NCBI GenBank assembly: GCA_011388675.1
Contig: DROW01000002.1
Coordinates: forward strand, 1-37,277
From: Chloroflexota bacterium
Lineage (GTDB): Bacteria > Chloroflexota > Anaerolineae > B4-G1 > DUEL01
Length of the DNA stretch: 37,277 nt
Reading direction: 5' to 3'
The position numbers were made by a program, and so were the translations under genes. The notes below the pieces were generated by a model. The model did not search any database. It had not been told where the DNA came from and saw only the letters and a program-made list of their open reading frames with translations. This document shows positions 1,838 to 30,250 of this stretch, in pieces (position 1 is the stretch's first letter; each line of letters begins with the position of its first letter).

Positions 1838-1871
1838 AACCCGCGCCCTACGGCAGGTAGGCGCGCGGGTT
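1838..1871. terminator. Candidate (possibly bidirectional) hairpin terminator between convergent genes
   Basis: AACCCGCGC (1838-1846) pairs with GCGCGGGTT (1863-1871) and is followed by TTTGTTGT on the + strand. It lies at the convergent junction and overlaps the last codons of the minus-strand M23 gene. Confidence 0.55.
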
Positions 1872-3020
1872 TTGTTGTACTCCGTTGTACCGGATCTCGA
1901 AGTGGAGGTGCGGGCCGGTGGACCAGCCGGTGTTGCCGGAGGCAGCGATGACCTGCCCGCGCTCGACCGCCTGCCCCGCGACGACGTAGATGTTGCTCAG
2001 GTGGGCGTAGTAGGTGGCGAAGCCGTTGGCGTGGTCGATCACCACCAGGTAGCCGTACCCCACATCGGTCCAGCCAGCGAAACTGACGAACCCCGCATCG
2101 GCCGCGCGCACCGCCGTGCCCACGGGCACCCCGATGTCGATCGCCCGGTGCCCGTACCAGTATCCCTGGGTGATGTAGCCCAGCACTGGCCACTGGAACA
2201 GCCCGGTGCCCCGAGCCCCCTCCGGAATGGGGCCGGTGTAACTGGTGATGACCCGTGGCACGTAGGGCTTCTCCCCTCCGGGGATGATCAGTTTCATCCC
2301 CGGCTCGATAGCGAAGTCGGGCGGCTCCAGATGGTTGTACGGGCAGGAAGTGATCGCCTCCACGTCCACCTTGTACTTCTCAGCGATGGACTCCAACGTA
2401 TCCCCTTCCTGGACGGTGTGGTACACCCCGTCGATGGGGAGGATGATGATCTCCTGGCCGATCCGCAGCAGGTCTGGCGCGTCCTCCACCGCCGGGTTGG
2501 CCCACAGGATCGTGGTCGGCTTCAACCCGAACCGCTCGGCGATGGCCTGGACCGTGTCTCCCAGTTGCACGGTGTAGGTGATGACCTCCAACCGAGGTCG
2601 ATCGGGGATCGTCGTGTGGAGTTCTGTCTTGCGGGTTAGTGGTGCCCACAGATCTGGTGAGGAGGGTTCGCCTTCGGGGGCCAGGATCTCCGTCGGGGTC
2701 GCCTCTGCGGGCAATGCGGCTTCCCCGAACGCACCGACCTCCAGGGCGCCAGGGAGGGGGTGAGCGGCAAGCACCGGCCAGTGGACGCTGCCGGCCACCA
2801 GGACGACGTAGGCGATAGCGAAAACGGCCAGGTGAGCGACGATGCGGCTGAAAATCGGCCGCATCCCCCGCCAATCCCCGCCCACTCGCCAGGTCGCTAC
2901 CGCGAGCCAGGCGAAGAAACGTGGGAGGGCAACCTCTAGCCGCTTTCGCAACCAGCCCTTCTTTTTCAACCGCCTCACCGTCCTATGAGTGATGGCGGCC
3001 TCTTCACTGTTTTCGTCCAA
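1848..3020 (-). CDS. Membrane-anchored LysM-domain M23 family peptidase
   Basis: 390 aa. N-terminal TM segment, two LysM motifs (YTVQLGDTVQAIAERFGL, HTVQEGDTLESIAEKYKV), M23 core (GHRAIDIGVPVGTAVRAADAGFV, STGPHLHFEIRYNG). Confidence 0.92.
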   Translation of the reverse strand: MDENSEEAAITHRTVRRLKKKGWLRKRLEVALPRFFAWLAVATWRVGGDWRGMRPIFSRIVAHLAVFAIAYVVLVAGSVHWPVLAAHPLPGALEVGAFGEAALPAEATPTEILAPEGEPSSPDLWAPLTRKTELHTTIPDRPRLEVITYTVQLGDTVQAIAERFGLKPTTILWANPAVEDAPDLLRIGQEIIILPIDGVYHTVQEGDTLESIAEKYKVDVEAITSCPYNHLEPPDFAIEPGMKLIIPGGEKPYVPRVITSYTGPIPEGARGTGLFQWPVLGYITQGYWYGHRAIDIGVPVGTAVRAADAGFVSFAGWTDVGYGYLVVIDHANGFATYYAHLSNIYVVAGQAVERGQVIAASGNTGWSTGPHLHFEIRYNGVQQNPRAYLP

Positions 3021-3107
3021 TTTTGGCTCCGTCGTGCTCTTCTAGCCCCCGTCAGGGGGCTCTATTATACCCTCAATCGAGCGGAAGGCAAATTCACCCC
3101 CCGCGGG

Positions 3108-3204
3108 ATATTCGAGGTGGATCACGCTACTCGGGAGGTGACCGGCACGTTCAACCCCCTCAGATCGCAAGTGCCGGTCACCTCCCTTGCCTTCCACTTC
3201 GAAT
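3108..3204. repeat. Dispersed nested-palindrome intergenic element, copy A
   Basis: Perfect 16-bp inverted repeat GGGAGGTGACCGGCAC (3133-3148) / GTGCCGGTCACCTCCC (3171-3186), with outer arms ATTCGAGGTGGA (3110-3121) / TCCACTTCGAAT (3193-3204). Its reverse complement aligns with 27082-27231. Confidence 0.85.
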
Positions 3205-3311
3205 CTGAAACGCGCTCGTGGGCAGCGATTTGCTGGCGCAAAATGGAATTCTGTGGCAAAATACCTGTTTGGAACTTCAGTACACAAGTTGCTCCAACAA
3301 GGGGGTTCGTT

Positions 3312-3884
3312 ATGAAAGAACTGATCGAGATCCGCTGGCATGGTCGGGGAGGACAGGGCGTGGTCACGGCAGGGAAACTCTTGGCTGAGACCGCCCTGGG
3401 CACCGGTCGGTATTTCCAGGCCTTCCCCGACTACGGCCCTGAGCGGATGGGAGCGCCCATCCGCGCCTACACCCGCCTCAGCACCCGGCCCATCACCATC
3501 CACTCGCAGATCGAGAGCCCGGACATCGTGCTGGTGCTGGACCCCACCCTCCTCGGCACCGTCCCCGTGACGGAGGGGTTGAAGGAGGACGGGATCCTCC
3601 TGGTGAACACCTCGATGAGTCCCAAAGAGGTGCGCGAGATCACGGGCTTTCACACCGGCAAGGTCTTCACGGTGGACGCCAGCCACATCGCCATCGAGGA
3701 GATGGGGCGGGAGATCACCAACACCCCGATGCTAGGGGCCTTCGCCCGCGCCACAGGCCTGTTCGACCTGAGCGCGCTGGAGGAGCAGATCCGCCACTGG
3801 TTCGGCAACAAGGTCGCTCCGGAGGTGGTCGAGGCCAACATCCGGGCGATGCGCCGGGCGGCGGAGGAGGTCGAAGAGGGATAA
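3312..3884 (+). CDS. porG: Pyruvate/2-oxoacid:ferredoxin oxidoreductase, gamma subunit
   Basis: MKELIEIRWHGRGGQGVVTAGKLLAETAL... typical POR gamma start; followed by delta, alpha and beta genes. ATG at 3312 inside ORF 2985..3884. Confidence 0.9.
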   Translation: MKELIEIRWHGRGGQGVVTAGKLLAETALGTGRYFQAFPDYGPERMGAPIRAYTRLSTRPITIHSQIESPDIVLVLDPTLLGTVPVTEGLKEDGILLVNTSMSPKEVREITGFHTGKVFTVDASHIAIEEMGREITNTPMLGAFARATGLFDLSALEEQIRHWFGNKVAPEVVEANIRAMRRAAEEVEEG

Positions 3885-3900
3885 TGTGGTGTAACGCCGC

Positions 3901-3967
3901 GCATCACGCATCACGCATCACGCATCACGTGTCACACATCACGCATCACGTGTCACGCATCACGCAT
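3901..3967. repeat. Heptanucleotide tandem repeat (GCATCAC)n between porG and porD
   Basis: Nine consecutive 7-bp units: GCATCAC x4, GTGTCAC, ACATCAC, GCATCAC, GTGTCAC, GCATCAC, then partial GCAT. Confidence 0.95.
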
Positions 3968-24698: not shown

Positions 24699-26801
24699 TC
24701 ACCTCTCCTCCGCCACCGCTTTGAAGCGGATCTCAACGACTGCCCCGTTATCATTATATAACTTCCATTCCCCTCTGAGGTTGCGCTCGATCAGGTTGCG
24801 GACCAGGTCGAATCCCACGCCGTGTCGGTTCATCCGCAGCACCTCATCTGAGTAGCCCGGTCCGTCGTCCCGGAACTGGAGGACGACTTCACCTCCGTCG
24901 CTCTGGATTCCCACCTTTATAGTCGCTGTATCCCGCCCTCGGAGGGCATGTTTGACCACGTTGGTCGCCAGTTCGTTCAGCACGAGGGCCAGGTGGTGGG
25001 CCTGCTCTGGCGCGATGCGGACCGGCGAGGGGGTTACCTCGAACAAGACGTTCTTCCCCCGTGGCAGGGCCTGCAGGGTCGAGCGGATGACGTGCGTGGC
25101 GAGGTCGCTGAGCAGGATGGGACGCCACTCGGATGTGGAAAGCAGCGTGTGGGCGGTGGAGAGGCCCTGTACACGGGCCACCAGCCCGCTCAGCAGGGAA
25201 CGGCAGGCTTTCTGGACCTCCGCATCCATGTACCGCAGTTCGGCGTAGAGGAGCCCCACAATGGTCGAGAGGATGTTTTTGACCCGGTGGTTGACCTCCC
25301 TCAACAGCAGCGCCTTGGTATCTGCATCCTCCCGCGCCTGCTCGTACAGCCGGGCGGTCTCAATGGCGACCGCAGCCGTCGCGGCCAGTGGCTCCAGGAG
25401 TGCCAGGTCCACCGGACCGAACCGGCCTGCCTCCCGGTCCACCGCCTGCAGGACGCCGATCACCTGTCCGCGGACCTCCAGTGGCACGGTGATGGCGGAT
25501 CGGATCACCAGTCCGGTCCACTGGTCCACGTCTCGGAAATGGCGAGGGTCCGTTTGTGCGTCGGCGACGATCAGGCTCCTGCCGTGGCGGACGACCCAGC
25601 CAGCGAACCCCTCCCCTGGCGCCAGCCGCAGCCCGTGGACTACATGGCTGCGGGGGCCGGTGACCTGTCGGCAGACCAGTTCCCCGGTCTGCGGATCGAC
25701 CAGCCAGACGGAGGTGGAAACGACCCCTAGGACCTGGCGGACTTCTTCAAGGACGATGGAGAGCACCTGGTCGAGATCGAGGGTGGAGACGAGGGCCTGG
25801 ACGGCGCGGTTGAGCAAGGCCAGTTCCCGCGTCCGCCGCTGAAGCGAGGCCTCTACCCGGACCCGGGCGGTCACCAGCGTCCCGATCAGCAGCCCCGTCA
25901 GGGAGAGGGATAGGATGAAAAGGGAGAGGGCCAGGGGGGGCTCCGTCCCCGTGCCGTACAGGCGGGCCGATAGGACAACGGCCGCCGCGATCGTCGGCGT
26001 GGCAATGGTGGCCCCGTGCAGGCCGTACCGGAAGGTAACCTCGATGAGCGGGACGAAACAGAGGAAGTACAGCCGGTGCCCGCTGTACAACGGCCCCAGG
26101 GCGATCCAGAGGAGGATAGCGCTCCCGCCGATCTCGCCCAGCATCAGAAGCCGCAATTGAAGAGGGGATCTCTTCTCCCGTGGCGCGACCGGAGACGGCT
26201 TCCGCTTGCTCAGCCGGATGATCCCCGGGACCACGTGGATGATGAAGAAGGGGGTGAGGCAGATCATGCTGAAGATCTCCCGGAGGCCCTCCCTCGTCGC
26301 CGCGACAAGGCACGGCTCGGAGTGGGGGATCAGCCACACGACTGCCAGACCGGAGATCAGCGCAGCGACGAGCATGGCGAAGAAGAAGCAGGCCACGTGG
26401 CGGACCCGTTCCATCCTCCAGCACCGGAACCGCGTCGTCATCGCTGCACCCACACCGTACCCCGCGGCCGTGAGAAGGGTCAGGGCCAGAAGCCGGAGGA
26501 AGGGGAGCGGAAGGGGGCGGATCACGAGGCCGACCAGCAGCCCGCCTAAAACCACGGCAGGGAGGAAACGGAGGCCAAAGCCGATGAGGAGGGCCAGGCT
26601 CAACCCGGGTAGAGCGAACCACGGCATATGTGTACCGGGCTGAGCGAGGAAAAAGACCGTCTCCTCTAGGGCGGCGAGGGTGGCGAGGTAGGCCAGGCCC
26701 ACGGCGACATCGTTCGCCAGGTGTCGCCCCCGCCGCGACGACCCCTTGTTGATCACGTCGTATATGCTGTCCATAGCCAGCCCGCGCAAGAGAAGGTCCA
26801 T
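24699..26801 (-). CDS. MASE1-like membrane sensor, GAF domain, HisKA_2-type histidine kinase
   Basis: 700 aa; multi-TM N-terminus (WFALPGLSLALLIGFGLRFLPAVVLGGLLVGLVI), GAF (RSAITVPLEVRGQVIGVLQAVDREAG), LLREVNHRVKNILSTIVGLLYAEL, C-terminal ATPase (LALVLNELATNVVKHAL, LQFRDDGPGY). Confidence 0.9.
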   Translation of the reverse strand: MDLLLRGLAMDSIYDVINKGSSRRGRHLANDVAVGLAYLATLAALEETVFFLAQPGTHMPWFALPGLSLALLIGFGLRFLPAVVLGGLLVGLVIRPLPLPFLRLLALTLLTAAGYGVGAAMTTRFRCWRMERVRHVACFFFAMLVAALISGLAVVWLIPHSEPCLVAATREGLREIFSMICLTPFFIIHVVPGIIRLSKRKPSPVAPREKRSPLQLRLLMLGEIGGSAILLWIALGPLYSGHRLYFLCFVPLIEVTFRYGLHGATIATPTIAAAVVLSARLYGTGTEPPLALSLFILSLSLTGLLIGTLVTARVRVEASLQRRTRELALLNRAVQALVSTLDLDQVLSIVLEEVRQVLGVVSTSVWLVDPQTGELVCRQVTGPRSHVVHGLRLAPGEGFAGWVVRHGRSLIVADAQTDPRHFRDVDQWTGLVIRSAITVPLEVRGQVIGVLQAVDREAGRFGPVDLALLEPLAATAAVAIETARLYEQAREDADTKALLLREVNHRVKNILSTIVGLLYAELRYMDAEVQKACRSLLSGLVARVQGLSTAHTLLSTSEWRPILLSDLATHVIRSTLQALPRGKNVLFEVTPSPVRIAPEQAHHLALVLNELATNVVKHALRGRDTATIKVGIQSDGGEVVLQFRDDGPGYSDEVLRMNRHGVGFDLVRNLIERNLRGEWKLYNDNGAVVEIRFKAVAEER

Positions 26802-26887
26802 ACGGATGTGACGAAACGGAGGGAAAAACGTCGTCCCGCAGGTTTGCCCGATCTTAGGCTATCACAAAGCGAAGGTTTCAGCAAGTG

Positions 26888-26986
26888 AGGTGACCGGCAC
26901 TTTCCTCAAACGTGCGTCTCGGCTCCTTCGCAGCGACCTTCAACGCCGACCGGTTGGCTCCAGAAGGGCAGAGGTGCCGGTTACCT
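26888..26986. repeat. Variant copy (C) of the dispersed palindromic element
   Basis: AGGTGACCGGCAC (26888-26900) and GTGCCGGTTACCT (26974-26986), inverted with one mismatch; right flank TTCCGGGTTGAT resembles TTCCGGGTGGTGTGAT of copy B. Confidence 0.65.
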
Positions 26987-27081
26987 TCCGGGTTGATAAG
27001 CCCTGGCCCCAAGGGACTACCACTTGCGCAATCGGCCCAACAAGATACCATGAAAACGCAGAGGTTGCCCTGCACTGTTCG

Positions 27082-27231
27082 GGTATTCGAAGTGGAAGGC
27101 AGGAGAGGTGACCGGCGCTTGCGAAACGAAGGCAAGAGTGCCTGTAGGGAGCCTCTAGAGGTCGGCAACGACCCCTGAGGGGGCTGAACGTGCCGGTCAC
27201 CTTCCGGGTGGTGTGATTCACTTCGAATACC
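27082..27231. repeat. Dispersed nested-palindrome intergenic element, copy B
   Basis: Outer perfect 13-bp inverted repeat GGTATTCGAAGTG (27082-27094) / CACTTCGAATACC (27219-27231). Inner AGGTGACCGGCGC (27106-27118) / GTGCCGGTCACCT (27190-27202). Aligns with the reverse complement of copy A. Confidence 0.85.
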
Positions 27232-27259
27232 CTATTTTGCAAGCAGCCGGGGGACGATC

Positions 27260-30250
27260 GTGGGCGAGAAACTGGAGGTCCGATTTCTGGGAGGGGTCGA
27301 GATCCTTCGGAACGGCCAGCCGGTCACCGGGATGCTTCCGTTGAAGGCGCTGGCTCTGCTCTGTTATCTCCTCGTTACAAACCGTCCCCACTCCCGCGTC
27401 GCGTTGGCTGGCCTCCTCTGGGGAGAGAAATCCGAGGCCAGCGCGTTGACCAACCTCCGCCAGGCCCTCACTCAGATCCGCCGGGTCCTCTCCCCCTACT
27501 TGCGCATCTCCCGTCACACCGTGGCCTTCAACCGGGAGGCCCCCTACTGGGCGGACGTGGAGGCGTTCGAGGAGGGGATCAGGAGCGGGGAGATCGGCGC
27601 AATGAAGGACGCACTGGCGCTTTATCGGGGGAACTTCTTGGAAGGGTTCTTCGTCCGAGATGCGCCTGCGTTCGACGAATGGGCCGCCCTTCGACGGGAA
27701 TATTTCCACGCCCGTGCGCTAGAAGCACTGCGCGCGCTGACCGCTCACCATCTCGGGCGGGGAGAATACCCCCTGGCGCTCCACTATGTCGATCGGCTCC
27801 TGGCGCTGGATCCCTGGCACGAGAGCGCTCATCGGCAGCGGATGCTCCTGCTGGCCCGGATGGGACGGTACAGCGAGGCCCTGGCCCAATACGAAGCCTG
27901 TCGCCGGATCTTGGCAGAGGAATTCGGCGTAGAGCCATCGGCAGAGACCCAGCGATTGTACGAACGCATCCTGGTCGCACGGCGGATGCACCGTCGTCCC
28001 CTTCCCGCTCAACCCACCCCCTTCGTCGGCCGGGAAGCGGAGTTGGACCGCCTTTCCCGCCTCTTGCTCGACCCCACCTACCGACTGCTGACGTTGATCG
28101 GTCCCGGCGGCATCGGTAAGACCCGCCTGGCGCTCAGGGCGGCGGAAAGATGTAACGAGCGGTTTTTGCACGGCGTCCACTTCGTGCCGCTCAACGGACT
28201 TTCCTCCGCCACGCTCCTTCCTACCGCCATACTGGAGAGGCTGGGGGCTCCCGCGCGGGGAGGGACGGGCCTGACGACGTGGCTTCTGGGCTACTTGCAG
28301 GACAAGGAAATGCTCCTGATCCTGGATGGTTTCGAGCACCTGCTGGAGGGAGCCACGCTGCTGGCGAGGATCTTGGAGACCGCTCCAGACGTGAAGTTCT
28401 TGGTCACTTCTCGAAAACGGCTTGGACTCCGCTGGGAGCATCTCTTCCCCGTCGGAGGGCTGGAGATCCCGCCCCAGGGAGACGAAGGTTCCAACCTCCG
28501 CACCTACAGCGCAGCCCGTCTCTTCCTTCAAACCGCCCATCGAGTCCACCCCGACTTCTCCCTCGACAACGGGGCTCGGTCCGTGGCCCGCATCTGCCGG
28601 TTGGTGGGGGGCTCTCCTCTGGGGATCGAACTGGCCGCCTCCTGGGTCCAGGCCCTTCCCGTGGAGGAGATCGCCCAACGGGTGGAGCAGAGCCTGGACT
28701 TCCTGACCGCCAGGGCACGGGACATTCCGCCGCGTCATCGGAGCCTGCGCGCGGTGTTCGATTCTTCCTGGCTCCTCCTCTCGGAGGAGGAACAGAGGGT
28801 GTTCCGGGCGCTCTCGGTCTTTCGCGGTGGGTTCTCGTCGGAGGCTGGAGCGTTCGTCGCCAGGAGTTTCCCTACACTGCTCGTAGCGCTGGAGGAGAAG
28901 TCACTCCTGCACCGGACCGGTCCGAACCGATATGAGGTCCACGAACTGCTGCGGCAATACGCAGAAGAGAAACTCCGGGAACATCCCGAGGAAGAGGTGG
29001 AGGTTCGGGACCGGCATTGCGCTTACTACGCTCTTTTCCTCCACGACCAGGAAGCCCGTTTAAGGCAAGGGGAAAGGAGAGGTTTAGAGCAGATCGCTCG
29101 GGAGATCGACAACGTGCGAGCGGGCTGGGAATGGGCGATAATACGGGGAAGGGTGGATGACCTGGGGAAAGCGGTGGGGATGCTGGCCCGTTTCTACGAG
29201 GTACGGGGATGGTTCCAGGACGGAGCACTCCTCCTCGGGAAGGCGGTCGACCGACTCCGGGGGCTCGAAAGAACGGAGGCGGTCGAGAGGGCACTGGGGC
29301 GGCTCCTCTCCCGCCAGGGATTCTTCGTCCGCTATTTGGGCGACCAGAACAAGGCCTATGCCCTGCTGAAGGAGGGGTTGGCAATCGCGTTGCGGGTGGG
29401 CGACCGGTGGGAGGTGGGCTTTGCCCTGAACAACCTGGGCATCTTGGCTGCGATGCGGGGGGATTTCGAGGAGCAGAGGCGGCTCTTTCTGGAAAGCCTG
29501 GCCCACTACCGGGCCGCGGGCGACCGGTGGCTGGAGGCGATCGTCCTCAACAACCTGGGTATCGCGGAGCGGTTGGTGGGGAAGTACGAGGAAGCGGAGC
29601 GGTTCAGCCGGGAGAGCCTGAGGCTCAGCCGGGAGATCGGAGCGCGCAGGTCAGAGGCGCGGGCCCTGCAGAACCTGGCGCTGGTCGCCCACGGGCGAGG
29701 GAATTACGCTGAGGCAAAGCGGCTCCACCAAGAGAGCCTCGCCATCCTTCGGGAGGAAGGGGATCTGTGGGGGACGGCGCTCGCCCTCGGCAACCTGGGC
29801 GAGGCGGCCCGCCTCCTGGGAGAGCACGCCGAGGCGAGGCGGTACCTTGAGGAGAGCCTGGACCTCCGCCGACAGATCGGCGACCGCTCGGGGATCGCCA
29901 TCGCCCTCAGCAGCCTGGGGAGCCTCGCCCGCGCGGAGGGGAAATACCCCCTGGCCCGACAGCGCTTCGGGGAAGCCCTGCGGCTGGCCCTGGAGGTCTC
30001 GGCGATCCCTCTGGCGCTGGACGTGCTGGTGGAGTTCGCGGAGGTGTTGATTGGGGAAGGGAAGGACGAGAAAGCCGTGGAAGTCCTTTCCCTTCCCCTG
30101 GTCCATCCGGCCACGGAGGCGTGGGTGCGGGAGAAGGCGGAGACGCTCTTGCAGGAGATCGCCTCCCGCCTGCCGCCTGAGGTGGTCGCTGAGGCGCAGG
30201 AGCGGGGAAAACGCCGGACAATCGAGGCTGTGGCGGAGGCGTTCCTCTAA
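27260..30250 (+). CDS. SARP/BTAD transcriptional activator with STAND NTPase and TPR repeats (AfsR-like architecture)
   Basis: 996 aa; N-terminal winged-helix/BTAD (EVRFLGGVEILRNGQPVTG, FDEWAALRREYFHARALEALRAL), Walker A LIGPGGIGKTRLALRAA, Walker B LLILDGFEHLLEG, C-terminal TPRs. Confidence 0.92.
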   Translation: MGEKLEVRFLGGVEILRNGQPVTGMLPLKALALLCYLLVTNRPHSRVALAGLLWGEKSEASALTNLRQALTQIRRVLSPYLRISRHTVAFNREAPYWADVEAFEEGIRSGEIGAMKDALALYRGNFLEGFFVRDAPAFDEWAALRREYFHARALEALRALTAHHLGRGEYPLALHYVDRLLALDPWHESAHRQRMLLLARMGRYSEALAQYEACRRILAEEFGVEPSAETQRLYERILVARRMHRRPLPAQPTPFVGREAELDRLSRLLLDPTYRLLTLIGPGGIGKTRLALRAAERCNERFLHGVHFVPLNGLSSATLLPTAILERLGAPARGGTGLTTWLLGYLQDKEMLLILDGFEHLLEGATLLARILETAPDVKFLVTSRKRLGLRWEHLFPVGGLEIPPQGDEGSNLRTYSAARLFLQTAHRVHPDFSLDNGARSVARICRLVGGSPLGIELAASWVQALPVEEIAQRVEQSLDFLTARARDIPPRHRSLRAVFDSSWLLLSEEEQRVFRALSVFRGGFSSEAGAFVARSFPTLLVALEEKSLLHRTGPNRYEVHELLRQYAEEKLREHPEEEVEVRDRHCAYYALFLHDQEARLRQGERRGLEQIAREIDNVRAGWEWAIIRGRVDDLGKAVGMLARFYEVRGWFQDGALLLGKAVDRLRGLERTEAVERALGRLLSRQGFFVRYLGDQNKAYALLKEGLAIALRVGDRWEVGFALNNLGILAAMRGDFEEQRRLFLESLAHYRAAGDRWLEAIVLNNLGIAERLVGKYEEAERFSRESLRLSREIGARRSEARALQNLALVAHGRGNYAEAKRLHQESLAILREEGDLWGTALALGNLGEAARLLGEHAEARRYLEESLDLRRQIGDRSGIAIALSSLGSLARAEGKYPLARQRFGEALRLALEVSAIPLALDVLVEFAEVLIGEGKDEKAVEVLSLPLVHPATEAWVREKAETLLQEIASRLPPEVVAEAQERGKRRTIEAVAEAFL

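Follow-up and report, generated by a model that had tools for sequence, protein, structure and literature searches.

A family of short palindromic elements dispersed in the genome of this Chloroflexota bacterium appears to record a transposon aiming at promoters. The fixed distance between element ends and promoters is the main feature of the family, and was overlooked in an earlier sequence-only reading of the window (the whole 37,277-nt stretch analysed, contig C2 of a 2.63-Mb genome assembled in 268 contigs and 81% complete). Promoter targeting by bacterial transposons has been described for few IS and ICE families. We consider it likely that the elements are a MITE family with two subfamilies, placed by Mutator-superfamily (p-MULT 4 / ISKra4-like) targeting, and that later recombination between copies rearranged the chromosome.

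The first copy noticed, copy A, contains the perfect 16-bp inverted repeat attributed to it (Table 1) and, as had been stated, no open reading frame: codon usage supports no gene within 2865-3311. Its right edge had been placed correctly at 3204, while its start lies at 3106 and not at 3108. Both outer and both inner arms of copy A align with copy B1 in opposite orientation, as proposed; the alignment does not run over the full length, about 50 bp of the core being deleted in copy A.

Table 1. Features of the window around copies A, B1 and B2.
Feature	Position	Strand	Remarks
LysM / M23 peptidase	1848..2864	-	copy A neighbour
-10 box TATAAT, predicted M23-gene promoter	3064..3069	-	36 bp off copy A end
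-35 box TTGCCT, predicted M23-gene promoter	3086..3091	-	14 bp off copy A end
Copy A, type 1 element	3106..3204	+	core ~50 bp shorter, right tip decayed
Left inner arm of copy A, GGGAGGTGACCGGCAC	3133..3148	+	half of perfect 16-bp inverted repeat
Right inner arm of copy A, GTGCCGGTCACCTCCC	3171..3186	+	half of perfect 16-bp inverted repeat
POR gamma-domain protein (PF01558)	3312..3884	+	copy A neighbour
GAF / HWE-type histidine kinase	24699..26801	-	B2 neighbour
Copy B2, type 2	26887..27005 (approx.)	+	type 1 inner arms, other core, other outer tip CAGGGCTTATCAACCC; left tip decayed
-35-like TTGCGC	27024..27029	+	18 bp off B2 right end
-10-like TACCAT	27046..27051	+	40 bp off B2 right end
Copy B1, type 1	27081..27232	-	complete (152 bp) with two perfect tips; no clear promoter anchoring
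BTAD-TPR transcriptional activator (SARP-like)	27260..30250	+	B1 neighbour

Copies were delimited by motif matching, and the coordinates of decayed ends are approximate. Copies B2 (type 2) and B1 (type 1) stand in tandem at 26887-27232, with B1 apparently lying between the promoter of B2 and the BTAD gene.

The sequence-only reading had named a genome holding only these copies as speaking against its proposal. A genome search turned up about 46. The sequence GGTGACCGGCAC matches the genome exactly 27 times, against once for its reversed control, and BLAST searches in the same genome returned 50 pieces with a full copy as query and 20 with a type 2 copy; joining the BLAST pieces by hand gave the figure of about 46. 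Copies measure 48-163 bp, are built as nested palindromes and have no coding capacity. Two types can be told apart. Type 1 has tips GGGTATTCGAAG, left arm TGAATCACGCTACCCGGA and right arm GCGGAAGGCAAGAG, type 2 has tips CAGGGCTTATCAACCC, and both share the inner arm AGGTGACCGGCACTT. The terminal inverted repeats of type 1 consist of perfect tips of 12-14 bp plus inner arms of 13-16 bp (15 bp in the comparison with type 2, whose arms are near-perfect over 34 bp). Both types have C or G at their termini. Repeats resembling target-site duplications flank 2 of 17 two-ended copies (TTGCCC and CTTCA, 6 and 5 bp; permutation P = 0.017); among the full-length copies whose tips are intact, these two have diverged least.

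At 41 of the 56 ends that carry a recognisable terminal motif, a strong outward-facing sigma-70/A-type promoter has its -10 box 34-41 bp away, promoters here being predictions from a simple -35/-10 score read outward from each element end. The -10 box falls at 36-37 bp in 25 of these 41 anchored ends. Set against these 41 ends, the highest count from shuffled flanks was 6; over the range of score thresholds, shuffles averaged 2-4 anchored ends and never exceeded 8. Of 35 type 1 ends, 18 have a -35 box that starts exactly 14 bp away and 28 have one at 13-15 bp; in type 2 it lies slightly further out, at 15-18 bp. This spacing would put the element end at about -51 relative to the transcription start. 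Either arm, left or right, serves as the anchored end. The remaining 15 of the 56 ends, among them copy B1, are intact but have no predicted promoter at the fixed distance. Judged by called protein genes, 24 copies occupy divergent gaps, 20 co-directional ones and 1 a convergent gap, and 1 lies at a contig end. Divergent gaps are enriched among those with an element, as only 12 of 76 element-free gaps of at least 80 bp, drawn from the same sampled neighbourhoods as the copies, are divergent (P = 2.5e-5). Several of the genes facing copies are tRNAs, recognised from the flanking sequence.

A comparison with a species of the same genus (G001, 83-89% identity) separates the promoters from the elements. 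G001 contains no copy, and neither do 39 other relatives. At orthologous sites in the part of G001 that was compared, about 1.2 Mb, the promoter is conserved, that of the M23 gene next to copy A included; homology mostly stops a short way upstream of the -35 box, within 0-20 bp of where the element ends. It follows that the element came to pre-existing promoters, or that copies elsewhere were joined to them. The idea that promoters travel with the element was rejected: from the element end to the -10 box, the flanks of different copies show no homology, whereas the elements themselves are about 90% alike, and the promoters also occur in the sister species. The proposal of a MITE-like mobile palindrome is supported by the dispersed copies, their sharp ends, the element-free orthologous sites and the two repeats resembling target-site duplications. 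With about 40 natural insertions in one genome and element-free promoters in its sister, the spacing can be read with a precision of one or two bases.

A cis-regulatory module, in which the tips are binding sites for an activator or the alpha-CTD and copies are kept only when the tip stands at about -51 of a promoter, would also suit the exact spacing, the tendency of intact tips to go with promoters and the presence of tRNA promoters among the targets. We find this unlikely. Identity to the consensus is even along the element (tips 0.88-0.89, spacers 0.86-0.88, core 0.89, inner arms 0.92-0.93), so that the tips, at 0.88, are no better conserved than core or spacer. In addition, the two unrelated tips of types 1 and 2 share the same position, the same promoters are in use in the sister species, which lacks the element, and ISKra4-like ISs keep the same spacing with a sequence that is common in the first bases only. 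A MITE inserted without targeting, with purifying selection sparing the copies just upstream of promoters as the nearest harmless place, is quite improbable: intergenic space is indeed short (87% of the sequence in the sampled loci is coding), but a broad spread upstream of about -40 would be expected, and the peak that is seen spans only two bases, few copies lying beyond it. Very improbable is a hairpin that works at the transcript level, as structured RNA, terminator or REP-like sequence, since the stable fold that favours it (-27.9 kcal/mol for the copy A region as single-stranded DNA; shuffles average -14.7, z = -5.2) goes with a location on the promoter side of genes, promoters that point away, a stem with no T tract behind it, no match in an Rfam search of the window and no covariation, the inner stem showing 42 one-sided changes to 1 compensated.

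These results leave the earlier interpretation as a mobile palindrome or hairpin partly supported. The terminator it offered is not supported, given the single convergent gap among 46 copies (by called genes), in which the copy faces a tRNA gene, and the lack of a terminator T tract in the palindrome; the transcribed regulatory hairpin finds neither an Rfam match nor covariation in its favour; and the REP-like label does not suit elements of 50-160 bp on the promoter side of genes. Given the even decay, the lack of covariation and ends that are not specially conserved, a conserved function as RNA or operator is unlikely. BIME/REP and Correia- or ERIC-type repeats are, like the element, dispersed intergenic palindromes of mosaic make-up. 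Unlike them, the element keeps a fixed distance to promoters and does not lie at gene ends, and it is larger than REP, the RAYT-associated palindrome having 20-40 bp against 48-163 bp for the nested palindrome.

The preferred reading, targeted insertion, has counterparts among known transposons. The insertion site of TnGBS/ISLre2 elements (p-MULT 3) lies upstream of sigma-A promoters, 15-17 bases from the -35 region, and contact between transposase and polymerase has been proposed for them (Guerillot and colleagues, PMC3942029). In the same study, an ISKra4 subgroup with near-perfect inverted repeats was found with promoters on both sides, and p-MULT 4 / ISKra4 elements were characterised by direct repeats of 8-9 bp, inverted repeats of 18-39 bp with a terminal C, and a Mutator-like DDE transposase (PMC3942029). 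By our analysis, the geometry of the element fits this published ISKra4/ISLre2 insertion specificity, and suggests a link to such a transposase. As in the promoter-targeting ISKra4 subgroup (p-MULT 4, PMC3942029), the position upstream of sigma-A -35 boxes is fixed, the ends are near-symmetric, so that either can face the promoter, and the terminal base is C (G on the other strand). The element differs in having no transposase gene, in the distance to the -35 box (14 bp in type 1 or 15-18 bp in type 2, against about 16), in the length of its putative target-site repeats (5-6 bp against 8-9 bp) and in its nested palindrome, whose inner module also occurs in distant genomes. TnGBS and ISLre2 (PMC3942029) are ICEs or ISs that carry their transposase and are oriented with IRr toward the promoter; the element has no transposase and uses both arms.

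On this basis, a Mutator-superfamily (p-MULT 4 / ISKra4-like) transposase supplied in trans would mobilise the ORF-less element and place it about 14 bp upstream of a -35 box, the insertion probably being guided, by the TnGBS proposal, by RNA polymerase holoenzyme on the promoter. The insertion set and the sister genome together make this polymerase-contact model testable. Multi-copy ISs are often missing from incomplete assemblies. Searches of the element's own genome, at 81% completeness, with PF00872, PF06782 and NF033572 (ISKra4) returned no transposase. Among genomes of the same family, 13 of 41 gave ISKra4-like matches at E <= 0.001, with none over the curated cut-off. Three G001 contigs (L245, L250 and L252) terminate in an IS, and its last piece gives a match to the C-terminus of the ISKra4 model. 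The end of this ISKra4-like IS, GGGTGTGCTTCAGTTTGGGG, is located upstream of promoters, including that of a tRNA, and the contig ends represent assembly collapse. ISs in this family of genomes with ISKra4-like transposase remnants and ends GGGTGYGCTTCAGTTTGGGG are often found at the element's promoter distance: at about 10 ISKra4-like IS ends in several genomes the -35 box lies 16-17 bp off, counted from GG. In G006, the family-level IS (L234) differs in its ends and lacks a promoter at the distance in question.

Traces of later events are found in the copies and in the gene order around them. Chimeras of types 1 and 2 occur at C46, C204:35558 and C242, and the C230 copy has two left-type outer arms, from which we conclude that copies recombine with each other. 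Compared with G001, synteny is broken at 13 of 16 element-bearing gaps and at 9 of 29 element-free gaps of at least 80 bp (P = 0.002), a comparison of gap classes that is based on a small sample and counts breaks irrespective of the direction of rearrangement; in short element-free gaps, breaks number 3 in 28. All six comparable copies with promoters on both sides lie at breaks (C27, C230, C258, C203, C125 and C225). The C96 copy, with one anchored end and the CTTCA repeat on both sides, lies in conserved gene order. This is the distribution predicted by recombination between one-sided insertions, and both the two-promoter copies and the chimeras fit recombination between copies. Such recombination would have rearranged the chromosome after insertion and joined promoter-facing halves, which would yield both the copies flanked by two promoters and the surplus of divergent gene pairs. 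If this is true, the elements reshape operon order and leave promoters intact.

Of 396 genomes of the class, 6, belonging to five families, contain the pair GGTGACCGGCACTT ... AAGTGCCGGTCACC, usually with a distance of 94-98 bp, and the reversed control gave no match. A scan of genome contigs gave just two chance-like matches, and none for the inner pair was obtained in viral contigs. In G152, from another family, there are 85 exact inner arms with other cores, several other outer arms and no clustering of promoters; at loci L293-L322 of that genome AGGTGACCGGCACTT is exact and the cores are unrelated, one outer arm resembling GTAAGCGTTC. The inner pair being scattered in the class, and unanchored in G152, the inner arm is a separate, patchily spread module. 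The possibility that the inner arm alone targets promoters was discarded, as promoters cluster at no distance where it is combined with other outer arms in G152; promoter anchoring is therefore a property of the outer tips of the element in its own genome. Among the papers searched, none described a promoter-anchored MITE or the inner-arm sequence. We hold tentatively, with chances that seem somewhat below even, the wider view that promoter-anchored MITEs act as chromosome joints, in which recombination between copies, each bearing a single promoter at a set distance from its end, joins promoter-facing halves into back-to-back divergent pairs, and in which a class-wide inner hairpin module gains lineage-specific outer arms.

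Other repeats were encountered along the way. A third palindromic element of about 50 bp, GGTGCGCTTCAGTTTGGGG...CTGAAGCACACCC, is present at L268 (G000:C35:449) and L289 (G000:C133:3157), with ends similar to those of the sister genome's ISKra4-like IS. Intergenic DNA of both genomes contains a recurring CACAGAGGCACAGAGAACACAGAG-type repeat, seen at the G001 sites opposite C96, C94 and C230. Finally, a tandem array of CGCATCA-type heptamers occupies positions 3900-3967 of the window, between two por genes, and the sister genome has similar stretches in four contigs or more.
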